Source: a virus. From it: a stretch of DNA of 23,800 nucleotides. The notes below the pieces were generated by a model, which worked only from the letters and a program-made list of their open reading frames with translations, had not been told where the DNA came from and ran no database searches. Shown piece after piece: positions 1 to 19,503 of this stretch (position 1 is its first letter; each line of letters starts with the position of its first letter). The stretch covers positions 1-23,800 of the IMG/VR virus record IMGVR_UViG_3300009149_000282, one strand, 5' to 3'. The translations under genes and the position numbers were made by a program.

Positions 1-628
1 TATCTTCACCAGATGTTAATAATCTAAATTTTACTGTTTTTTTACGCATTGGTAATTCAACAGTAAAATACCCATTTTCATCAGGTTCTTCATCAACCCT
101 TTTATATTTTAGTTTAGTTAAATCAACAGTTGTTTTAAACATTGCGTTAGTTCTTGGGTCTGGTACTTGTACACCATATTCTGAACCGTAACTTGAACTA
201 CGTAAAAATAATATAATTGCACTTCTATCGCCAGTTAATAAATCGTTAGGATTTACACCAGCAGTTTTAATTTTTCTTTTTAATAATACATCAATAGCTG
301 TACCATTATCAATTAAGGAAGGTGTTGTTAAAATATCTTCATCTTTTGATGTCATATATTCAACAGTAACTTCTTTAAGTCCATTTTTATAAAATTTACC
401 TTTTGATGGTAATTTAATAATTTCATATGAAGTCATTAAATCAGGGTCAGTCTCTTTACTCATAGTTTTTTCAAACTCTTGAGGATTAAAACTATCCATT
501 TTTGGATTTGCATCAGGAGTTAAATTAATCGGTTTAGTTTCATTAGTACCGTGCATTTCTTTATATTTCTTTAAAACATCACCTATTGGTTCTCTTGTTT
601 TAACAGGTTCTTGATTCATATTTTCCAT
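1..628 (-). CDS. T4 gp26-like baseplate hub assembly protein (partial, C-terminus off the left edge)
   Basis: The reverse strand is open from an ATG at 628 to the window edge, giving 209 residues without a stop. Residues 1-60 are polar and probably flexible. From about residue 66 the sequence has the pattern I associate with the T4 baseplate gp26-type family: SYEIIKLPSKGKFY (67-80), then VEYMTSKDEDIL (89-100), a Gly-Thr-Ala-Ile-Asp stretch with LLKR (109-118), LLTGDR (130-135) and LRSSSYG (142-148). In T4 this protein helps assemble the central baseplate hub and is not abundant in the virion. The next ATG, at 619, is in frame and could also serve. A late-type box lies 24 bases upstream of the chosen start. 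The family call rests on recalled motifs, not on a search. The gene is transcribed divergently from phoH. Confidence 0.72.
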   Translation of the reverse strand, partial: MENMNQEPVKTREPIGDVLKKYKEMHGTNETKPINLTPDANPKMDSFNPQEFEKTMSKETDPDLMTSYEIIKLPSKGKFYKNGLKEVTVEYMTSKDEDILTTPSLIDNGTAIDVLLKRKIKTAGVNPNDLLTGDRSAIILFLRSSSYGSEYGVQVPDPRTNAMFKTTVDLTKLKYKRVDEEPDENGYFTVELPMRKKTVKFRLLTSGED

Positions 629-6167: not shown

Positions 6168-6177
6168 AGTATTTATA
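6168..6177 (+). promoter_or_regulatory. Late-type promoter box AGTATTTATA before the 6221-9596 cassette
   Basis: An exact AGTATTTATA stands 43 bases before the ATG at 6221, in the 64-base gap after the 5848-6156 gene. It would start a transcript covering the six genes up to the gp5-like gene. Confidence 0.6.
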
Positions 6178-8500: not shown

Positions 8501-8703
8501 TGGAAAATTTAGATAAATATACACCAATCGAACTACAAAAAATGTCTAATGATATTGTTATGAAACATGAAGCATTAAAAGATGATATTATTAAACACAC
8601 ATATAAACTTGAAGAGATTGAAAATTTAATTAATGAGAAAAGTAAGGAATTAGAAGAACTTGAAAAAAATTACGTGAAAATTATTGAAAAATTAGTAGAA
8701 TAA
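8500..8703 (+). CDS. Small coiled-coil protein (67 aa)
   Basis: Nearly the whole protein reads as a charged coiled coil, with heptad-like Leu, Ile and Val spacing from about residue 10 to the end (KLEEIENLINEKSKELEELE in the middle). Starts and stops overlap on both sides (TAATGG at 8498-8503 and TAATGG at 8701-8706), which implies translational coupling to the Gly/Pro-rich gene and to the gp5-like gene. This suggests production in a fixed ratio with them. It could be an assembly chaperone or a small structural bundle in the baseplate. The function is not recognised. Confidence 0.72.
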   Translation: MENLDKYTPIELQKMSNDIVMKHEALKDDIIKHTYKLEEIENLINEKSKELEELEKNYVKIIEKLVE

Positions 8704-9596
8704 TGGGATTTGATAAGCCAATTATACAAACAAGTAACCCATATAAAGTGGAACACGCTACTCTTAATAGAAATAGGACAATTTTCTATGGGGAAGTCAT
8801 TAGTATTGATGATGAAACTGATGGTGGTAGAATTAAAGTTAGAATTCCAGATATTGATGATAGAACAGCTAATACTGATTTACCTGAAGCATATCCATTA
8901 TTACCAAAATTCTTCCACATTTATCCGCAAGTTGGTGAAATGGTTAGAATTTTTATCGAAGATACTAAGTTTCCAGAAAGAAGTAGATTTTGGATGGGTA
9001 GTATCATATCTCAACCACAAAAAATTGGTTTTGATTCAAGATTTAGCGCACTTTCAACAACGAATCTTGGATTAACTAAACCTGAAAAAGCACCATCAAC
9101 TTATCCAGATGCTGCTGGTGTCTTTCCATTAAAAACTGATATTGCTATTGTTGGTAAAGTAAATACCGATATTATTTTAAGAATAAATGAAGTGCATATT
9201 AGAGCAGGTAAACATGAGAATAACGATATTTTAAAATTAAATATTAAAAATCCCGCAGACATTAGTATGATTTATGAACCAATTAGTGGTGATAGTAATA
9301 CTTATTATAGTAACACAATTATTATGAGTGATAAAATTGCTTTAATTTCTCATAATGGCAACCCTCAATTTAAAGCTGCTAGAGTGGGTCAGGATGATAG
9401 ATCAAGAATATTTAATACTGGACATCCAATTGCTCGTGGGGATGTCGTAGTTGAAGCCTTAGAGGTACTGAGGATTGCTATACTCGGTCATCTTCATGGA
9501 TATTCTGGATTACCTGCCGATAAAACTGCAATAATTAAAAAACTTGAAAATTTACAATTTAATAATATTCTACAAAAAAATATTGTAACAAATTAA
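8703..9596 (+). CDS. gp5-like baseplate spike/hub protein with N-terminal OB fold
   Basis: Residues about 25-105 match the OB-fold domain of T4 gp5-type proteins: FYGEVISIDDETDGGRIKVR (28-47), then LPEAYPLLPKFFHIYPQVGE (60-79) and FWMGSIISQPQ (96-106). In T4 this domain sits on the gp27 hub trimer and joins the tail tube to the membrane-piercing spike. Here no lysozyme domain follows, and the protein is 297 residues against 575 in T4. The middle (about 140-225) is beta-rich. The C-terminal part has HPIARGDVVVEALEVLRIAILGHLHGY (about 240-266), a conserved-looking helix seen in related spike proteins. It starts at the TAATGG overlap and ends 21 bases before the nuclease gene. Cell-wall digestion, if needed, must be supplied by another protein. 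Confidence 0.82.
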   Translation: MGFDKPIIQTSNPYKVEHATLNRNRTIFYGEVISIDDETDGGRIKVRIPDIDDRTANTDLPEAYPLLPKFFHIYPQVGEMVRIFIEDTKFPERSRFWMGSIISQPQKIGFDSRFSALSTTNLGLTKPEKAPSTYPDAAGVFPLKTDIAIVGKVNTDIILRINEVHIRAGKHENNDILKLNIKNPADISMIYEPISGDSNTYYSNTIIMSDKIALISHNGNPQFKAARVGQDDRSRIFNTGHPIARGDVVVEALEVLRIAILGHLHGYSGLPADKTAIIKKLENLQFNNILQKNIVTN

Positions 9597-9612
9597 AATT
9601 TTCATATATTTG
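9583..9612 (+). promoter_or_regulatory. Host-type (Bacteroidota) promoter before the nuclease gene
   Basis: TTG at 9583-9585, 19 bases, then TATATTTG at 9605-9612 matches the Bacteroidota housekeeping promoter (TTG, about 17-23 bases, TAnnTTTG). The -33 element lies inside the end of the gp5-like gene. Transcription would begin almost at the ATG at 9618, giving a nearly leaderless message. Confidence 0.5.
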
Positions 9613-9617
9613 TCGTA

Positions 9618-10403
9618 ATGAATATTCAAATTCCAGATAAATTATTTACAACATTTAACGATATTACGTTTCATGATGAACCACATAAGTATTATGTGGG
9701 TGATAAAGAATTAATTAGTGTTACTACGTTAATTCATAGATATCAAGAAATATTTGATGAAGATTATTGGTCAAAATATAAGAGCAATGAACTTGGTCTT
9801 ACACAAAAAGAAATATTACGTGCGTGGAATTTTATAAATAAAAAGGGAACAATTAAAGGTTCAGCAATTCATGATTATGCTGAGAACCGTTTTTTAAATA
9901 AAAAATTTCCATATCCAAAACAAACGATTCTTGATGAATTTGGTTTTGACCCTGTTTTAGATGAATATTTAATAACAAAAAAACATGTTGATAATTTCCA
10001 TAAGGATGTATATGGTAAATTAATTCCAATAAGAACTGAAATGGTTGTTTATGATAGAGAATCATTAATCGCTGGTATGCTCGATATATTGTTTTATAAT
10101 GTTAAAGCTAAAGAGTTTCAAATTTGGGATTATAAAACAAACAAAAAATTTGATAAACAAATGAGTTCAAGACATTTTAGTGATGAATTATTTATGTTAG
10201 AAGATTGTGATTTAGAAATTTATTCATTACAATTATCAATGTATAAATTAATTATTGAAAAAAATACTGGAATTAAACTTGGAAAATCATATGTTGTTTG
10301 GTTTAGTCACAATAATGATAATTATGAAGTTATTGAAACTAAAGATAGATCATATTATGTAAATACGATTATTAATAAAAGAATCGCTGAATTAGCTGCA
10401 TAA
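9618..10403 (+). CDS. PD-(D/E)XK (RecB/Cas4-like) nuclease
   Basis: The 261-residue protein shows the full nuclease set in order. It has KGSAIHDYAE with His85 (80-89), Glu141 in IRTEMVVYD, GMLDILF with Asp156 (153-159), IWDYKTNK with Asp171 and Lys173 (169-176), and QLSMYK with Gln205 and Tyr209 (205-210). This is the arrangement of RecB-family and Cas4-like exonucleases, which cut DNA with bound Mg or Mn. No four-cysteine iron-sulfur cluster is visible. Likely roles are recombination, replication or host-DNA degradation. It sits among structural genes but has a host-type promoter and no late box, which suggests early or middle expression. The downstream 68-residue gene begins one base after its stop. 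Confidence 0.85.
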   Translation: MNIQIPDKLFTTFNDITFHDEPHKYYVGDKELISVTTLIHRYQEIFDEDYWSKYKSNELGLTQKEILRAWNFINKKGTIKGSAIHDYAENRFLNKKFPYPKQTILDEFGFDPVLDEYLITKKHVDNFHKDVYGKLIPIRTEMVVYDRESLIAGMLDILFYNVKAKEFQIWDYKTNKKFDKQMSSRHFSDELFMLEDCDLEIYSLQLSMYKLIIEKNTGIKLGKSYVVWFSHNNDNYEVIETKDRSYYVNTIINKRIAELAA

Positions 10404-10404
10404 C

Positions 10405-10611
10405 ATGACAGACGATAAAGTAAATACGATAGTAGATATTTATCAAACATTAATAGATTTGAAAAAGAATGGAACTTTAGTTGATTTAGATTTTAATTGG
10501 GACGAAGAAAACAATACTTTGGAAATAAAAACTGTTCCTAAACAAGTTATCAAACATATTCAACTGAATTTTACCGTCACACCAACTGGAATAGATTTTG
10601 ATGATTTTTAA
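10405..10611 (+). CDS. Small protein resembling the sheath C-terminal domain (68 aa)
   Basis: The protein ends in FTVTPTGIDFDDF (56-68), and the phage's own sheath ends in FTITPTGASFDDL: 9 of 13 positions are identical. The similarity extends upstream. LIDLKKNGTLVDLDFNWDEE of the small protein lines up with ILDSIKRERGLTDFRIKMDA of the sheath (about residues 852-871). The region between is about seven residues shorter in the small protein. The small protein therefore looks like a compact stand-alone copy of the sheath C-terminal beta domain. In contractile tails this domain lends strands to neighbouring subunits. It begins one base after the nuclease stop and ends at a strong hairpin shared with the convergent tail tube gene. 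It may cap, nucleate or regulate the sheath. The alignment was made by eye, and the role is inference. Confidence 0.75.
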   Translation: MTDDKVNTIVDIYQTLIDLKKNGTLVDLDFNWDEENNTLEIKTVPKQVIKHIQLNFTVTPTGIDFDDF

Positions 10612-10612
10612 A

Positions 10613-10640
10613 TATAAAGCCACTCGAAAGTGGCTTTATA
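10613..10640. terminator. Bidirectional hairpin terminator
   Basis: A perfect 12-base-pair stem (TATAAAGCCACT with AGTGGCTTTATA) closes a four-base loop, CGAA, which reads TTCG on the minus strand. It lies two bases after the stop of the 68-residue gene and 15 bases from the stop of the convergent tail tube gene, so it can end both transcripts. Confidence 0.85.
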
Positions 10641-10655
10641 ATTTCTAAATGTTTC

Positions 10656-11153
10656 TTAAAGATTAAGAACACATCTCCACGGTTGGAGTTCTAATGTGAT
10701 ATTAGTTAATTCATCATTAGCATAATCGTTTTCTCCGAAATCAATACTTACTATTTGACATTGTTCTAAAGTCCATTTTTCAACTTCAACACCTGTCGGG
10801 TCTAATGATTTTAATGTGATATCTTTTTTATATCCTGCTGCATATCCCATACGACCAGTAAGTGATTCAGCATGTAAACGAACCCATTCCATAAGTTGTT
10901 GTGATGTGGAAGGTCCTATTGGGTCAAGAAACGTTACAGACATACTATCCCATGTATATCTACCTGCAACATAGTTTTGTTCGTTCATATATTGAATTGG
11001 AACACTATTAATTTTCATTGAAGGTCTTTTGAATTTTTGGACTTTCCAAGTTTGAATTCCTAGCGAGTTATCAAATACGGCAAAGAACCTATTAACTCTC
11101 TTTGGTTCGTAATCGAACGGCATCGCTCTTAACATTGTTTCTTCTGCTGCCAT
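10656..11153 (-). CDS. Tail tube protein (T4 gp19-like)
   Basis: The 165-residue length is almost that of T4 gp19 (163). The N-terminal part has the usual NRFFAVFDNSLGIQTWKVQKF (about 21-41), then VPIQYMNEQNYVAGRYTWDSM (about 51-71) and VTFLDPIG (73-80). The C-terminal strand is LTNITLELQPWRCVLNL (about 149-165). These match the beta-barrel that stacks in hexameric rings to form the inner tube through which DNA passes. A late-type box stands 34 bases upstream. The gene shares its terminator hairpin with the convergent mini-sheath gene and lies downstream of the sheath gene, as tube and sheath genes are usually adjacent. Here a small Lys-rich gene separates them. Confidence 0.95.
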   Translation of the reverse strand: MAAEETMLRAMPFDYEPKRVNRFFAVFDNSLGIQTWKVQKFKRPSMKINSVPIQYMNEQNYVAGRYTWDSMSVTFLDPIGPSTSQQLMEWVRLHAESLTGRMGYAAGYKKDITLKSLDPTGVEVEKWTLEQCQIVSIDFGENDYANDELTNITLELQPWRCVLNL

Positions 11154-11187
11154 TTTATCTATTTATTAATTATATTTCTTATTTTAT

Positions 11188-11197
11188 AATAAATACT
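11188..11197 (-). promoter_or_regulatory. Late-type promoter box (AGTATTTATT) before the tail tube gene
   Basis: The minus strand reads AGTATTTATT, one mismatch from the common box, 34 bases before the ATG at 11153. It lies in the 82-base gap after the small Lys-rich gene, so the tube gene can be transcribed separately from it. Confidence 0.5.
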
Positions 11198-11235
11198 CTA
11201 GTATTTGAAAATCTTATTAATTAACCCAATAATTT

Positions 11236-11484
11236 TTATTTTGGCATTTGACCAGTCCTTTGAAACACTCTAAGTTCTGTTGTGCTTAAACTTTCTAAAG
11301 TTCTTGGTTCTGGTTTTTTCTCGACAATATTATCTTCCAATTCTTTTTCAAGAGCTAGTTCATCTTTATTAATTACACTTTCTAATGTTGTTTCTATTGT
11401 TTCTTCTTTAGGAATTATGTCTTTTTCAACAACTTTTTTCTTAAAAAATCTATTTACTGTTGATGTTTTTTTCTTTTTTGCCAT
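11236..11484 (-). CDS. Small Lys-rich hypothetical protein (82 aa)
   Basis: The product is not recognised. I chose the ATG at 11484 (MAKKKKTSTVNRFFKKK). A TTG three codons upstream at 11493 would add three residues and is less likely. The first 25 residues are very basic. The middle (about 28-65) is Glu-rich and low in hydrophobic residues, suggesting an extended or disordered protein. The last part, LESLSTTELRVFQRTGQMPK, could form one helix. It lies between the sheath and tube genes with its own late-type box, and its 5' leader contains an ATT-rich repeat. An assembly factor or internal virion protein is possible. There is no direct evidence. Confidence 0.7.
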   Translation of the reverse strand: MAKKKKTSTVNRFFKKKVVEKDIIPKEETIETTLESVINKDELALEKELEDNIVEKKPEPRTLESLSTTELRVFQRTGQMPK

Positions 11485-11584: not shown

Positions 11585-14338
11585 TTAAAGGTCATCAAAT
11601 GATGCACCAGTTGGTGTTATTGTAAACGTAATACCAATAAATTCAAGAGAACGTGTTGGTTTTAAGAATATTTCACCATATAATTCATTTCTATCTAATG
11701 TTTCAGTAGTATTATTACTAGCATCCATTTTAATTCTGAAATCAGTCAAACCTCTTTCTCTTTTAATACTATCAAGAATTGGGTTTACTTTAGTTAAGAA
11801 TTGGTCAATTATTTCTTGATCATTTTGGTCAAATAAAAGTCTAATTGAAATATTAGAAATAAGAATTTTAATTTGAAGTAATAATCTACGAACATTAATT
11901 CTATCAAGAGCAGTTTCTTTAACTTGAAGAGTTTTCTGTCCAAAAATTGCAGTTCCAACATCAGCGAATTGAACTAATGGATTGATTCTACCCTTATAAA
12001 TAGTGTCACGTGCTTCCTGTGATAATCTATACATTGGTTTAATTGCATTAGTTACACCACGAGTTAAACCAGCAGGTGCGAACCAAGGGAATTTCACATT
12101 ATCTGTAAATGCCATAGCTCTTACAACTTCACCAGTTGGTGGAATATAAACTTTAACATTATTATAAGAGTCATTCATCTGTATCCAAGGGAAATATGTT
12201 GCAGAATAGCTACTATCAATTGCAGTATCATCTAATAATTGAGCAATTTCAGTTGCTACAACAATATCTTCTTTTCCACTACCACCAACAGTAGGAACAA
12301 TATAACCAGCTAATTCAGGAGCGTCAATAACATATAATGTATCTGTTCTCTGAGTTTCAACCATATCAATTGTAGCTTGAACTAATGATGTTTGATCTAC
12401 CCAATTGATGCCCGGTGTGGCTAAAAGATTAATCGTAACATTTTCAGGATTTGAAAAAGTGTTTATTGCCAATTCCCATGCCTGATAATCATTTGTTGGA
12501 ACAACTAATGGTTGACTAGGATGCCCACTTTGTCTTCCACCCTGTACATAACCATCTGTGTATGAACGTTCTCTTCTATTAACATCCCAACCATCAAAAC
12601 CACCAGCAGGAGCAAAAGTAAATTTTCTTGTTTTAATACTATAATATGGATTTGTTATATCGTCAGTATCATTATATGTTCTAAATTTTCCAGCACCAAC
12701 TTCAAATTCACCATTCATGTATGATGTACCTGTTGCACCTGAGTCCATATGATATCCTTTAGATTTAGTAAAACCAGTACTCTGTTGTCCTGAATAATAG
12801 TTTACAAAATTAAAGAAATTTTGATTTATACCATCATTTGTATATGCTGTTTCAGAAACACCAAGATATGTTTTATTTATATTATCAGTGTCTGCGTAAG
12901 ACGTTTTATAAAATATTTTTGGTGATATACCTTCACTTACAGCATCACCAGTAACTGCTGTAGTATAACTATGTTGAAGATATCCTTCAAAACCAGCAGG
13001 AAATACGTCAACAGAAAGATTATCTTCCATTTCAACCATAACATACTTACTTTTAAGTGTATATTCACCATCTGAAGTCCCTATACGTTGACCAATATAG
13101 CTTGATTGTCCTTTAATTAATGAACAATTACTATAAGTTTCTAAAATAATTGGATTCGCATCAGTATCGTAGAATGAACGAATAATAACATCAAATTGTT
13201 TTAGGTGTGGGTCAATATTACCAATAGTTATTTTAATTTCTTGATTCGCACTATCACCATCAGAAATACTAATAAACTTAAATAATCTATTAATAACATT
13301 ACCTTTTAATTGAGATACAACCCAAGGTGTTTCAGGTGTTTGAAATGATATTTCATAATCACTAAAATAATCAGTAGTACCTGTAACCATAACAGTATTG
13401 ATACCATAACCAATTCCATCATTATCAAGTTTCTTAATAAGATCAGGATAAATTGCCTCTGTCCAAATCATTGTTGATTTATCTTTTGCTTTACTACCAA
13501 TAACATTAGGTAAGAAACTAGCATCATTTGGATTTAACGAAACGTTATATGTTGCAGTAGTTGTACCACTTGAAGCAACTAAATTAAATTCCCCAAAAAG
13601 GTCACCAGTTGGACTTATTATTGAATCTATTGTTGTGTTACTAGTAATTACAAGATTAGTTGTATCGAATTCAGTAACAGGAATTGAATCAATTGGTGTT
13701 GTTGAATCACCCCTACTTCTAATTACAGCTAAAACCATACCTTCATAATCTGATAATGATGTTCCTGTCATTACTGATGTTGTACCACTAACTGTACCTA
13801 ATCCTGTTGTACTACTATATGTTAGTACTTCAAAATATGTTACTACATTACCAAAACCAGTTGTTCCAGTCTTTTCCCAGCCAGTACTAGTTGTTCCAGT
13901 TTGACCGATATTACTTATAGCAACACCTAAAAATGCACTATCAGTAAATGCTGTTGAACCAAATGTGACTGTTGAACTAAGACCTGTTGTTGATGAGTCA
14001 ACACCAGCACTCATTGTGATATTCCAAGCAGTACCTGCTTTATATCCACTAAGTCCAAGGACTCTAGTAACCCAAAGTTGTTGTGCTTCTTCTAAAAATG
14101 AATTAGCAACATAAGGTAATTGATATTGAAGATTCCCATCAGGAAATCTTGTAACACTTTGATTTCCAAACCTATTTGAAAATTGTGTTTGGTCTTGTAT
14201 GAAAACTGGTTCAAATGCGGGACCCTTTAGTGTTTCACCAGCAACCCCTAATGTTGTTATACCGACATTACGTGTTACATAAGTTAAGTCACGTTCTTTA
14301 AATTTTACGCCCGGAGAAGTAAATACGAAATCTGCCAT
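11585..14338 (-). CDS. Tail sheath protein (T4 gp18-like), unusually large
   Basis: This is a 917-residue contractile sheath subunit, against 659 in T4 gp18. The N-terminus FVFTSPGVKFKERDLT (4-19) is the typical sheath start that reaches into neighbouring subunits. The conserved core is toward the C-terminus: PWFAPAGLTRGV at about 750, INPLVQFADVGTAIFGQKTL at about 785-805, LDRINVRRLLLQI shortly after, and the closing beta domain ending FTITPTGASFDDL. Residues about 100-640 form a long insertion rich in Ser, Thr and Gly, probably surface-exposed beta domains on the outside of the tail. The sheath surrounds the gp19-like tube and contracts to drive it into the cell. A late-type box lies 59 bases upstream, and a strong hairpin ends the transcript. 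The last 70 residues resemble the 68-residue protein at 10405-10611. Confidence 0.96.
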   Translation of the reverse strand: MADFVFTSPGVKFKERDLTYVTRNVGITTLGVAGETLKGPAFEPVFIQDQTQFSNRFGNQSVTRFPDGNLQYQLPYVANSFLEEAQQLWVTRVLGLSGYKAGTAWNITMSAGVDSSTTGLSSTVTFGSTAFTDSAFLGVAISNIGQTGTTSTGWEKTGTTGFGNVVTYFEVLTYSSTTGLGTVSGTTSVMTGTSLSDYEGMVLAVIRSRGDSTTPIDSIPVTEFDTTNLVITSNTTIDSIISPTGDLFGEFNLVASSGTTTATYNVSLNPNDASFLPNVIGSKAKDKSTMIWTEAIYPDLIKKLDNDGIGYGINTVMVTGTTDYFSDYEISFQTPETPWVVSQLKGNVINRLFKFISISDGDSANQEIKITIGNIDPHLKQFDVIIRSFYDTDANPIILETYSNCSLIKGQSSYIGQRIGTSDGEYTLKSKYVMVEMEDNLSVDVFPAGFEGYLQHSYTTAVTGDAVSEGISPKIFYKTSYADTDNINKTYLGVSETAYTNDGINQNFFNFVNYYSGQQSTGFTKSKGYHMDSGATGTSYMNGEFEVGAGKFRTYNDTDDITNPYYSIKTRKFTFAPAGGFDGWDVNRRERSYTDGYVQGGRQSGHPSQPLVVPTNDYQAWELAINTFSNPENVTINLLATPGINWVDQTSLVQATIDMVETQRTDTLYVIDAPELAGYIVPTVGGSGKEDIVVATEIAQLLDDTAIDSSYSATYFPWIQMNDSYNNVKVYIPPTGEVVRAMAFTDNVKFPWFAPAGLTRGVTNAIKPMYRLSQEARDTIYKGRINPLVQFADVGTAIFGQKTLQVKETALDRINVRRLLLQIKILISNISIRLLFDQNDQEIIDQFLTKVNPILDSIKRERGLTDFRIKMDASNNTTETLDRNELYGEIFLKPTRSLEFIGITFTITPTGASFDDL

Positions 14339-17969: not shown

Positions 17970-18754
17970 AAAGAATAATAAAATCTAACGGTAATGATAA
18001 CAACCTAAAATTTTCATTAGGGTCTAGTATTAATTTCGTTGATTATCAACAAGAAATTGATAATACTGTGGAAGAAACTAAAAAAAAATTAATTAATACG
18101 ATTGTTGATTATGAAGTACGTAGGTTTACATATAAATCAGATAAAGAAACATTACTTAGTTTTGTTTTTACAAATAGTGACGGGTCGTTTTATTATAGTA
18201 ATTTCGCATTAATCGGATTTACACCAATAGAGTTTATATTTAATGCAGATGTGGTACGTAACAGTTTTTTTATTGTAGATTATTATGATACTTATGATAG
18301 TAATACACAAACAAAAATTTTTACATCATACATGACTCAATTAGTAAATGAAAATAAAGTACCTTCATATACAGTTTCTCCTGAAAATGAAAATCAGTTT
18401 TGTACTTTAAATATTCCTAAATCATATCTTGATATTAATACTGAACTTGGTTATAGTATAATTAGAGGTTACATTAAATTAAGTTTATATAATGCTAAAG
18501 ACGGTAAGGTTTATTTGTTTTATAATAAAGCAAATGAAACTCTTAGTACTGAAGAAAAAATGTATTTTAAAACCACATTATATCTTAATACTATGGAATG
18601 GAAATGGGATTTAGAATCTACACAAGCATATCAAATACCAATATCGAACTCATATGTTAATAAAGTTAATAATACGTTTACTACGTTTGATAATAATAAA
18701 CAAACATATCCAGAAGGAAATATATTTAAAGATGGTACTTATGAAACAGAATAA
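17960..18754 (+). CDS. Probable virion protein of unknown family (264 aa)
   Basis: The family is not recognised. An N-terminal helix with Glu/Lys repeats (about 28-50) precedes a long beta-rich region with many aromatic residues (FVFTNSDGSFYYSNFALIGF, about 68-87; FFIVDYYDTYDS, about 102-113). The start ATG at 17960 lies inside the previous gene, overlapping it by ten bases in another frame. The 3' end overlaps the convergent gp15-like gene by 16 bases, and I see no terminator hairpin between them. It is likely a companion of the 394-residue protein in the same structure. Confidence 0.65.
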   Translation: MSIKRIIKSNGNDNNLKFSLGSSINFVDYQQEIDNTVEETKKKLINTIVDYEVRRFTYKSDKETLLSFVFTNSDGSFYYSNFALIGFTPIEFIFNADVVRNSFFIVDYYDTYDSNTQTKIFTSYMTQLVNENKVPSYTVSPENENQFCTLNIPKSYLDINTELGYSIIRGYIKLSLYNAKDGKVYLFYNKANETLSTEEKMYFKTTLYLNTMEWKWDLESTQAYQIPISNSYVNKVNNTFTTFDNNKQTYPEGNIFKDGTYETE

Positions 18755-19503
18755 CTAATTTTTGTTTTTCTAATTGTTTTAACAATTTCAAATTCCTTTT
18801 CATCTTGAATGAACCCTAAAATTTTTAAAGCATATTTTGATACAAAAAACCTATCACCATCAATATTTTCGATTGGATTACTTTCTGCAAATCCCTCAAA
18901 TAACAATACCAATGGATTACCATTAACCCAAACATAATCTTGTCGTGATGCAAAGTTTTTAAGTACTTGTTCATCATATTTATTGACATCAACACGATAT
19001 TTTGTAAATAAAGCTACTTCATATATCATATCAACATTTACTGGTTCAGGCATTTTAAATTGTAGAAAAATTTCTTGACCCTCATCAAGAATAGGTACGT
19101 TTACATATCTAAATTTTTTAGGTTGTGGAATTCTATATTTACTACCAAGTCTTGTGCCCGGTTGTTTATCAATACGTCTTACTGTAATATATGGTGTTGG
19201 AACGTTTTTATCATCATCCATAAACTTCCAAGTTTTACTAAATTCTCCCCAACGATCATTATCGAGATAGAATGTTGGAACTAATCTATTATCTAATGTT
19301 AATTGCATACCTTTATCATTTACATAATCAAAAAGTGATGCATCAAGGTCTTCAAGTAAAATAGTTCTTGGCAAATACTTACTATTAGTATTTGTTTTAG
19401 CCATAAGTTCAGCAATTCTATCAAACCCATATTCAAGATACTTAGTACCAATATCTGGTGGATTAGTATCAATACTTAATTTTATTTTTTTTGGAAGTGA
19501 CAT
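18739..19503 (-). CDS. Probable tail sheath stabiliser/terminator (T4 gp15-like)
   Basis: Within this 254-residue protein, EPVNVDMIYEVALFTKYRVD (153-172) and the following EQVLKNF (178-184) resemble the T4 gp15 segment around MIYELSIFTRYEDD and EQILPYF. The C-terminal KYALKILGFIQDEKEF (223-238) occupies the place of gp15's strand that precedes its Trp/Pro-rich turn. T4 gp15 (272 residues) forms a hexamer capping the tail tube and sheath and joins the tail to the head. The N-terminal 100 residues are less similar. A late-type box lies 12 bases upstream. The gene is alone on the minus strand between two plus-strand groups. The assignment is from remembered sequence and needs a profile search. 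Confidence 0.6.
   Translation of the reverse strand: MSLPKKIKLSIDTNPPDIGTKYLEYGFDRIAELMAKTNTNSKYLPRTILLEDLDASLFDYVNDKGMQLTLDNRLVPTFYLDNDRWGEFSKTWKFMDDDKNVPTPYITVRRIDKQPGTRLGSKYRIPQPKKFRYVNVPILDEGQEIFLQFKMPEPVNVDMIYEVALFTKYRVDVNKYDEQVLKNFASRQDYVWVNGNPLVLLFEGFAESNPIENIDGDRFFVSKYALKILGFIQDEKEFEIVKTIRKTKISYSVS

Follow-up and report, generated by a model that had tools for sequence, protein, structure and literature searches.

The stretch of DNA analyzed here (the window) comprises 23,800 nucleotides, positions 1 to 23,800 of the IMG/VR virus record IMGVR_UViG_3300009149_000282. A small gene encoding 68 residues lies there between a nuclease gene and the convergent tail tube gene, with a hub-like gene upstream of the nuclease and the sheath gene beyond the tube (Table 1). 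A single base separates the nuclease stop from the start of the small gene. The hairpin between the small gene and the tube gene is a probable bidirectional terminator. The nuclease resembles those of crAss-like and Flavobacterium phages, and the promoter-like site ahead of it leaves almost no leader before the start codon. A second small protein, charged and without a family match, is encoded between the tube and sheath genes (11236-11484, minus strand); its end (..LSTTELRVFQRTGQMPK) is kept in a distant relative, L090 (..LSTAELRRFQRTGKMPE), while the rest varies.

Table 1. Features surrounding the small gene (window coordinates; elements of the small protein in residues)
Feature	Position	Strand	Basis
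Baseplate hub-like protein	8703..9596	+	phrog_430 E 0.0011, weak
Bacteroidota-type promoter-like site, TTG-N19-TATATTTG	9583..9612	+	just before nuclease start
PD-(D/E)XK-type exonuclease	9618..10403	+	phrog_298
Free-standing sheath C-terminal (handshake) domain protein, 68 aa	10405..10611	+	homology, predicted fold
Predicted elements of the small protein	helix 3-21; hairpin 25-33/38-45; C-terminal arm 52-66		
Hairpin between convergent small and tube genes	10613..10640	.	-15.6 kcal/mol on either strand
Tail tube protein, convergent to small gene	10656..11153	-	phrog_4542 E 1.4e-27
Late-type box AGTATTTATTATAA upstream of tube gene	11185..11198	-	
Tail sheath protein, 917 aa	11585..14338	-	phrog_23 E 1.2e-63; Pfam Phage_sheath_1C
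Sheath C-terminal domain, homologue of the small protein	about 11588-11800	-	tblastn within window

A free-standing homologue of the sheath C-terminal domain

The first-pass annotation proposed that the small protein is a shortened, free copy of the sheath C-terminal domain, on the grounds that its end, FTVTPTGIDFDDF, resembles the end of this phage's sheath, FTITPTGASFDDL. These ends are identical at 9 of 13 positions, and the likeness extends upstream of the motif (tblastn within the window, query residues 19–67, E 3.5e-5). When the small protein was searched against PHROGs, the sole family returned was phrog_23, tail sheath (E 0.0016), with residues 14–65 aligned to profile positions 408–469 of 496. 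Using the 68-mer as a tblastn query against 50,697 phage records, we obtained matches in 884 records at E<=10; all of the best 40 rows fall at sheath C-termini, mostly of T4-like phages. Individually these rows are weak (best E 0.09), yet all lie at the same place, and the single row labelled 'terminase' is tail sheath in the RefSeq copy of that record. A second member of the family, from L041, behaved in the same way as a query.

Alignments of the family extended this result. An alignment of 11 free homologues, searched against PDB sequences, returned T4-like gp18 chains as its top four matches (E 0.006–0.01). A profile to which only free proteins contributed detects sheath C-termini of their own clade at E 1.8e-10 to 4.6e-9, which excludes a chance resemblance, and those of T4-like phages, RM378 and immuto at 1e-7 to 1e-8 (small search set). 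Additionally, the motif is kept by homologues, so it is not a chance match confined to the last residues. For Pfam Phage_sheath_1C no match to the small protein, a short query, is listed at E<=1.

The predicted structure agrees with the sequence. AlphaFold2, supplied with the 11 free sequences, gave a model with pLDDT 82.7, consisting of a helix (3–21) and strands at 25–33, 38–45, 56–59 and 62–65. Foldseek placed the T4 sheath first (prob 0.98, though E 0.17), with further contractile-tail entries ranking behind it. In VIA-align the top five rows were the sheath C-terminal parts of five entries, covering phiCD508, KP1, phi812 and pyocin, with modest Z scores of 3.7–4.0; ribosomal S8 rows came next at Z 3.4 and below. 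A model of the divergent member from L090 has the same order of elements at lower confidence (pLDDT 72), and its top two structural matches, at prob 0.2, were from phi812 sheath-containing entries. Matches in BFVD were of low confidence, with sheaths at ranks 2 and 5. The predicted fold thus matches solved sheath C-terminal domains.

The small protein shares with the sheath of T4 (gp18) and of the phrog_23 and Pfam PF04984 + PF17482 families the same helix, β-hairpin, C-terminal arm and predicted fold, together with the pattern P...I...F..T..G..F. It differs from a full sheath in lacking the subtilisin-like domains and the N-arm, so that its 68 residues correspond to the C-terminal domain only. 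In a joint alignment, the free proteins retain the helix, both hairpin strands and the C-arm, and are without about 10 residues between the hairpin strands (around TETLDRNELYG in the window's sheath). With sequence and predicted fold in agreement, the small protein is truly a homologue of the C-terminal handshake domain of the sheath, encoded on its own, and the annotation was right on this point.

An accessory gene family at the tube–nuclease junction

No relative was recovered when viral contigs were searched directly with the 68-mer, and in a profile search of the contigs true sheaths swamped the matches. Relatives were reached instead via the neighboring tube and nuclease genes in IMG/VR. 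Homologues do stand beside the tube genes of related metagenomic phages, where we found 15 distinct intact free proteins, the window's included. The carriers are probably large tailed phages of Bacteroidota. A tube search of genome contigs matched three contigs from MAGs, of which two are labelled Bacteroidales or Bacteroidota, and no free gene was found in the examined stretches of the three. Likewise, the free-only profile found no free homologue in the tube neighborhoods of immuto, Mel-JY01, RM378 and LR756508.

Three further candidates were not accepted. RM378 gp30 was rejected as unrelated. In a 349-kb relative, the C-terminal half of a 128-aa protein (L104:4760-5143, plus strand) shows a weak likeness to the free family (E 2e-4 within that genome); it scored 17.6 bits against 16.0 for a shuffled copy and was not counted. 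Finally, the match of phrog_10094 to two members is weak and does not include the end motif.

Identity between members of the free family falls to 21–25%. Even so, in a 14-row alignment of free proteins P45, G62 and F65 are invariant and P60 is nearly so, and six columns (P45, I52, F56, T59, G62 and F65) are conserved in both free proteins and sheaths. Per-column conservation in the two groups is correlated (rho 0.41, permutation p 0.001). Within the free protein the C-arm is kept best, at a mean pairwise identity of 0.53 compared to 0.39 for the hairpin and 0.20 for the helix. A branch with support 98/99 sets the free proteins apart from the sheath C-termini in a joint tree, which indicates that they are an old lineage of their own and did not arise anew from the sheath of each phage. 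A single origin of the free proteins apart from the sheaths is therefore well supported by the tree, subject to the caution that its long branches demand. For L042 and L026, which are close relatives, dN/dS is about 0.05, indicating that the free gene is under purifying selection over that distance.

These results bear on whether the gene is a functionless relic, a fragment of sheath copied into a variable slot. Its patchy presence and a decayed copy in L003 would fit such an origin; 15 intact distinct copies forming one old clade, the invariant proline, glycine and phenylalanine residues and the low dN/dS between close relatives speak against it. We disfavor a relic and consider it highly improbable.

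Comparison of the window with two relatives showed how the free gene changes relative to its neighbors. Identity to L042 is 64% for the free protein, 80% for the nuclease and 88% for the tube; the corresponding values for L007 are 31%, 81% and 93%. By these identities, the free gene diverges much faster than its neighbors over the longer distance. The incongruence suggests that the gene is exchanged as a cassette.

The slot itself is variable. The free gene occupies 16 of 98 distinct tube–nuclease slots; another 29 have a large opposite-strand ORF instead, 14 have other contents and 39 are empty. Three of the 16 also carry a large ORF, and one, in L003, contains a truncated copy that is still counted. 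Sampled large ORFs match GIY-YIG/NUMOD3, LAGLIDADG_3 or a Mom/Vsr-like endonuclease arrangement. The truncated copy (L003:6416-6589, minus strand) is a decayed free gene whose last part is replaced by the reversed start of a GIY-YIG gene; this remnant resembles a gene of L046, which has both genes intact, while L006 has neither. On the nuclease tree, presence of the free gene requires at least 9 changes, versus 13.2 when shuffled. The free gene is thus an accessory, dispensable gene that turns over and not a conserved gene of the tail module. Apart from the free gene, the junction (window 10612-10655) is a hotspot for homing-endonuclease-type genes of the GIY-YIG, LAGLIDADG and Mom/Vsr-like kinds, and the equivalent slot is a hotspot in L016, L020, L024, L029, L038, L043, L052, L060, L062, L068 and L075.

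In every resolved case the free gene directly follows the nuclease gene and is convergent to the tube gene; in L090, a distant member, the start of the free gene and the stop of the nuclease overlap. This constant order, along with the 1-base gap in the window, would suit a reused domain in which the sheath fold serves as a partner or regulator of the adjacent nuclease. However, most nucleases of the clade have no free gene beside them, including that of L047, which is 81% identical to the window's, and the conserved residues of the free protein are the sheath ones. A role with the nuclease is distinctly unlikely on this evidence.

Promoter classes and expression

The annotation also held that the small gene is read with the nuclease from a host-type promoter and not from a late box. 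We counted promoter-like motifs upstream of the nuclease and tube genes; the labels host-type and late-type are by analogy, to the Bacteroidota sigma-A consensus and the T4-type late box respectively. TAnnTTTG occurs within 40 bases of the nuclease start in 75 of 86 distinct upstream regions (2.2 expected), and the late-type [AG]TATTTA within 90 bases upstream in only 4 of 86 distinct sequences. The reverse is found at the tube gene, where 92 of 95 distinct upstream regions contain [AG]TATTTA (14.9 expected) and a single one of 95 contains the host-type box. The -33 TTG of the nuclease site is also part of the coding end of the hub gene, which accounts for some of its conservation. The small gene, following the nuclease, is accordingly headed by a host-type promoter without a late box, as had been claimed. 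Across the window, a GTATTTAT-type box is common to tail genes on both strands, lying upstream of 6221, 10656-11153, 11236-11484, 11585-14338, 14626, 16785 and 18739-19503; it is a likely late promoter of this phage group.

From these promoters it had been suggested that the small protein is made before the sheath. The promoter contrast supports early expression, while expression restricted to the early phase does not follow, as the late hub operon could read through. That operon starts with a late-type box near 6175 and ends 21 bases before the nuclease with no obvious terminator, an arrangement that makes late read-through into the nuclease/small-gene pair likely.

Early-type expression also raises the idea of counter-defense, whereby an early copy of a sheath fragment would occupy a bacterial sensor that otherwise detects the sheath protein. 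Defense systems that sense phage structural proteins exist, and the early-type promoter, patchy presence, fast divergence and homing-endonuclease slot of the free gene resemble those of accessory counter-defense genes. On the other hand, we know of no sheath-sensing defense, and purifying selection on the whole handshake motif fits sheath binding equally well. We regard a role of this kind as rather unlikely.

Possible action on sheath assembly

Phage tails, tailocins, extracellular injection systems and type VI secretion are all powered by contractile sheaths, whose means of avoiding premature assembly are poorly understood. In the assembled sheath, the C-terminal domain of a lower-ring subunit forms a platform to which the N-arm and C-arm of two upper-ring neighbors add strands (PMC10457771, PMC11915804). 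In the free sheath monomer of diffocin, the C-strand is closed on its own sheet and is exchanged on assembly (PMC6088184). The separate gene family described here encodes such a handshake module in free form, with a helix, a two-stranded platform and its own C-arm.

Our preferred reading, held tentatively, is that the small protein acts as a decoy or temporary cap, exchanging strands with sheath subunits and delaying or limiting their polymerization. The 68-mer would bind unassembled or growing-end subunits by β-strand exchange, either taking sheath arms on its own platform or placing its C-arm in an exposed sheath platform. Because it has no body and no N-arm, it would be unable to continue the mesh and would serve as a decoy or temporary cap. 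Since its gene follows the nuclease behind a host-type promoter, the protein would be present before the sheath and could delay or limit polymerization, acting either on the sheath of the same phage or on that of a relative infecting the same cell. The homology and predicted fold, the conserved columns shared with sheaths, the best-kept C-arm, the single origin, the purifying selection, the promoter classes and the published strand-exchange architecture were all counted in favor of a decoy.

Several observations count against it. The C-arm may merely close the protein's own three-stranded sheet, by analogy with the monomeric diffocin sheath (PMC6088184), in which case the arm could be conserved for folding rather than for contact with the sheath. 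Sheath C-termini scarcely vary within this phage clade, and a strong inhibitor would therefore act on the sheath of its own phage as well. Additionally, late read-through from the hub operon could place the small protein in the late phase, and the gene is dispensable.

The same homology and timing evidence would serve for an action of opposite sign, in which the small protein promotes assembly as a chaperone or folding template for the sheath; a free platform could release the C-arm that monomers keep closed. Relatives without the gene nevertheless keep intact sheath and tube genes, and their tails presumably assemble anyway. We find a chaperone very doubtful.

A structural role was also weighed, in which the small protein is a minor part of the virion, occupying handshake platforms left exposed, or arms left unpaired, at one sheath end, as terminators or gp25-like initiators do elsewhere. 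The sheath initiator (gp25, XM1 gp15 or TssE) is likewise small and presents a sheath-CTD platform, superimposing on the sheath C-terminal domain (PMC10457771). In the last sheath ring the platform is taken up by strands of the terminator (PMC11915804, PMC10491603), and the small gene could be read through from the late hub operon. Against a structural part, the gene is present in only 16 of 98 distinct slots, has been lost by deletion in L003 and is headed by a host-type promoter, and the GPW_gp25 profile (PF04965) matched a separate gp25 in each of the five relatives over 140 kb. The free gene is absent from these five, and the contigs of carriers are fragments. The profile had no match in the window record. 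The small protein is about half the size of the relatives' gp25 genes (open frames of 136–152 aa), and we rejected it as a gp25 stand-in on the strength of the five large relatives, extending this to the carriers by inference. Among known terminators, Mu gp37 and Milano gp18 donate strands to the handshake sheet of the last ring (PMC11915804, PMC10491603); however, their strands belong to a hexameric ring protein, a body that the small protein lacks. A profile for T4-gp15_tss (PF16724) matched nothing in the searched records, controls included. The collar protein gp13 of Milano is likewise an extra sheath-like structure beside the true sheath (PMC10491603), but it is a structural ring protein around the neck, whereas the small protein is the sheath C-terminal module only. 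An accessory and fast-evolving gene is neither an essential cap nor a gp25 stand-in, and a structural part is unlikely.

Our search, confined to the open-access literature, gave no earlier description of a sheath C-terminal domain encoded on its own. The domain itself is known; what appears to be new is finding it in a separate accessory gene headed by a host-type promoter, and the gene differs from that of the sheath in standing apart from it, forming a separate clade, having another class of promoter and being accessory. Beyond the decoy or temporary cap, a wider picture is that of an early-made, dominant-negative handshake module that sets when, or whose, contractile tails assemble and is carried as an exchangeable cassette at a homing-endonuclease slot; this picture as a whole is speculative and somewhat unlikely. 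If the dominant-negative reading is true, the small protein would be a natural protein inhibitor of contractile sheath polymerization. As a natural, soluble handshake module, it offers a direct tool to probe the strand-exchange model of polymerization. The family is a case of a domain of a structural protein turned into an accessory gene, under seemingly early-type control.
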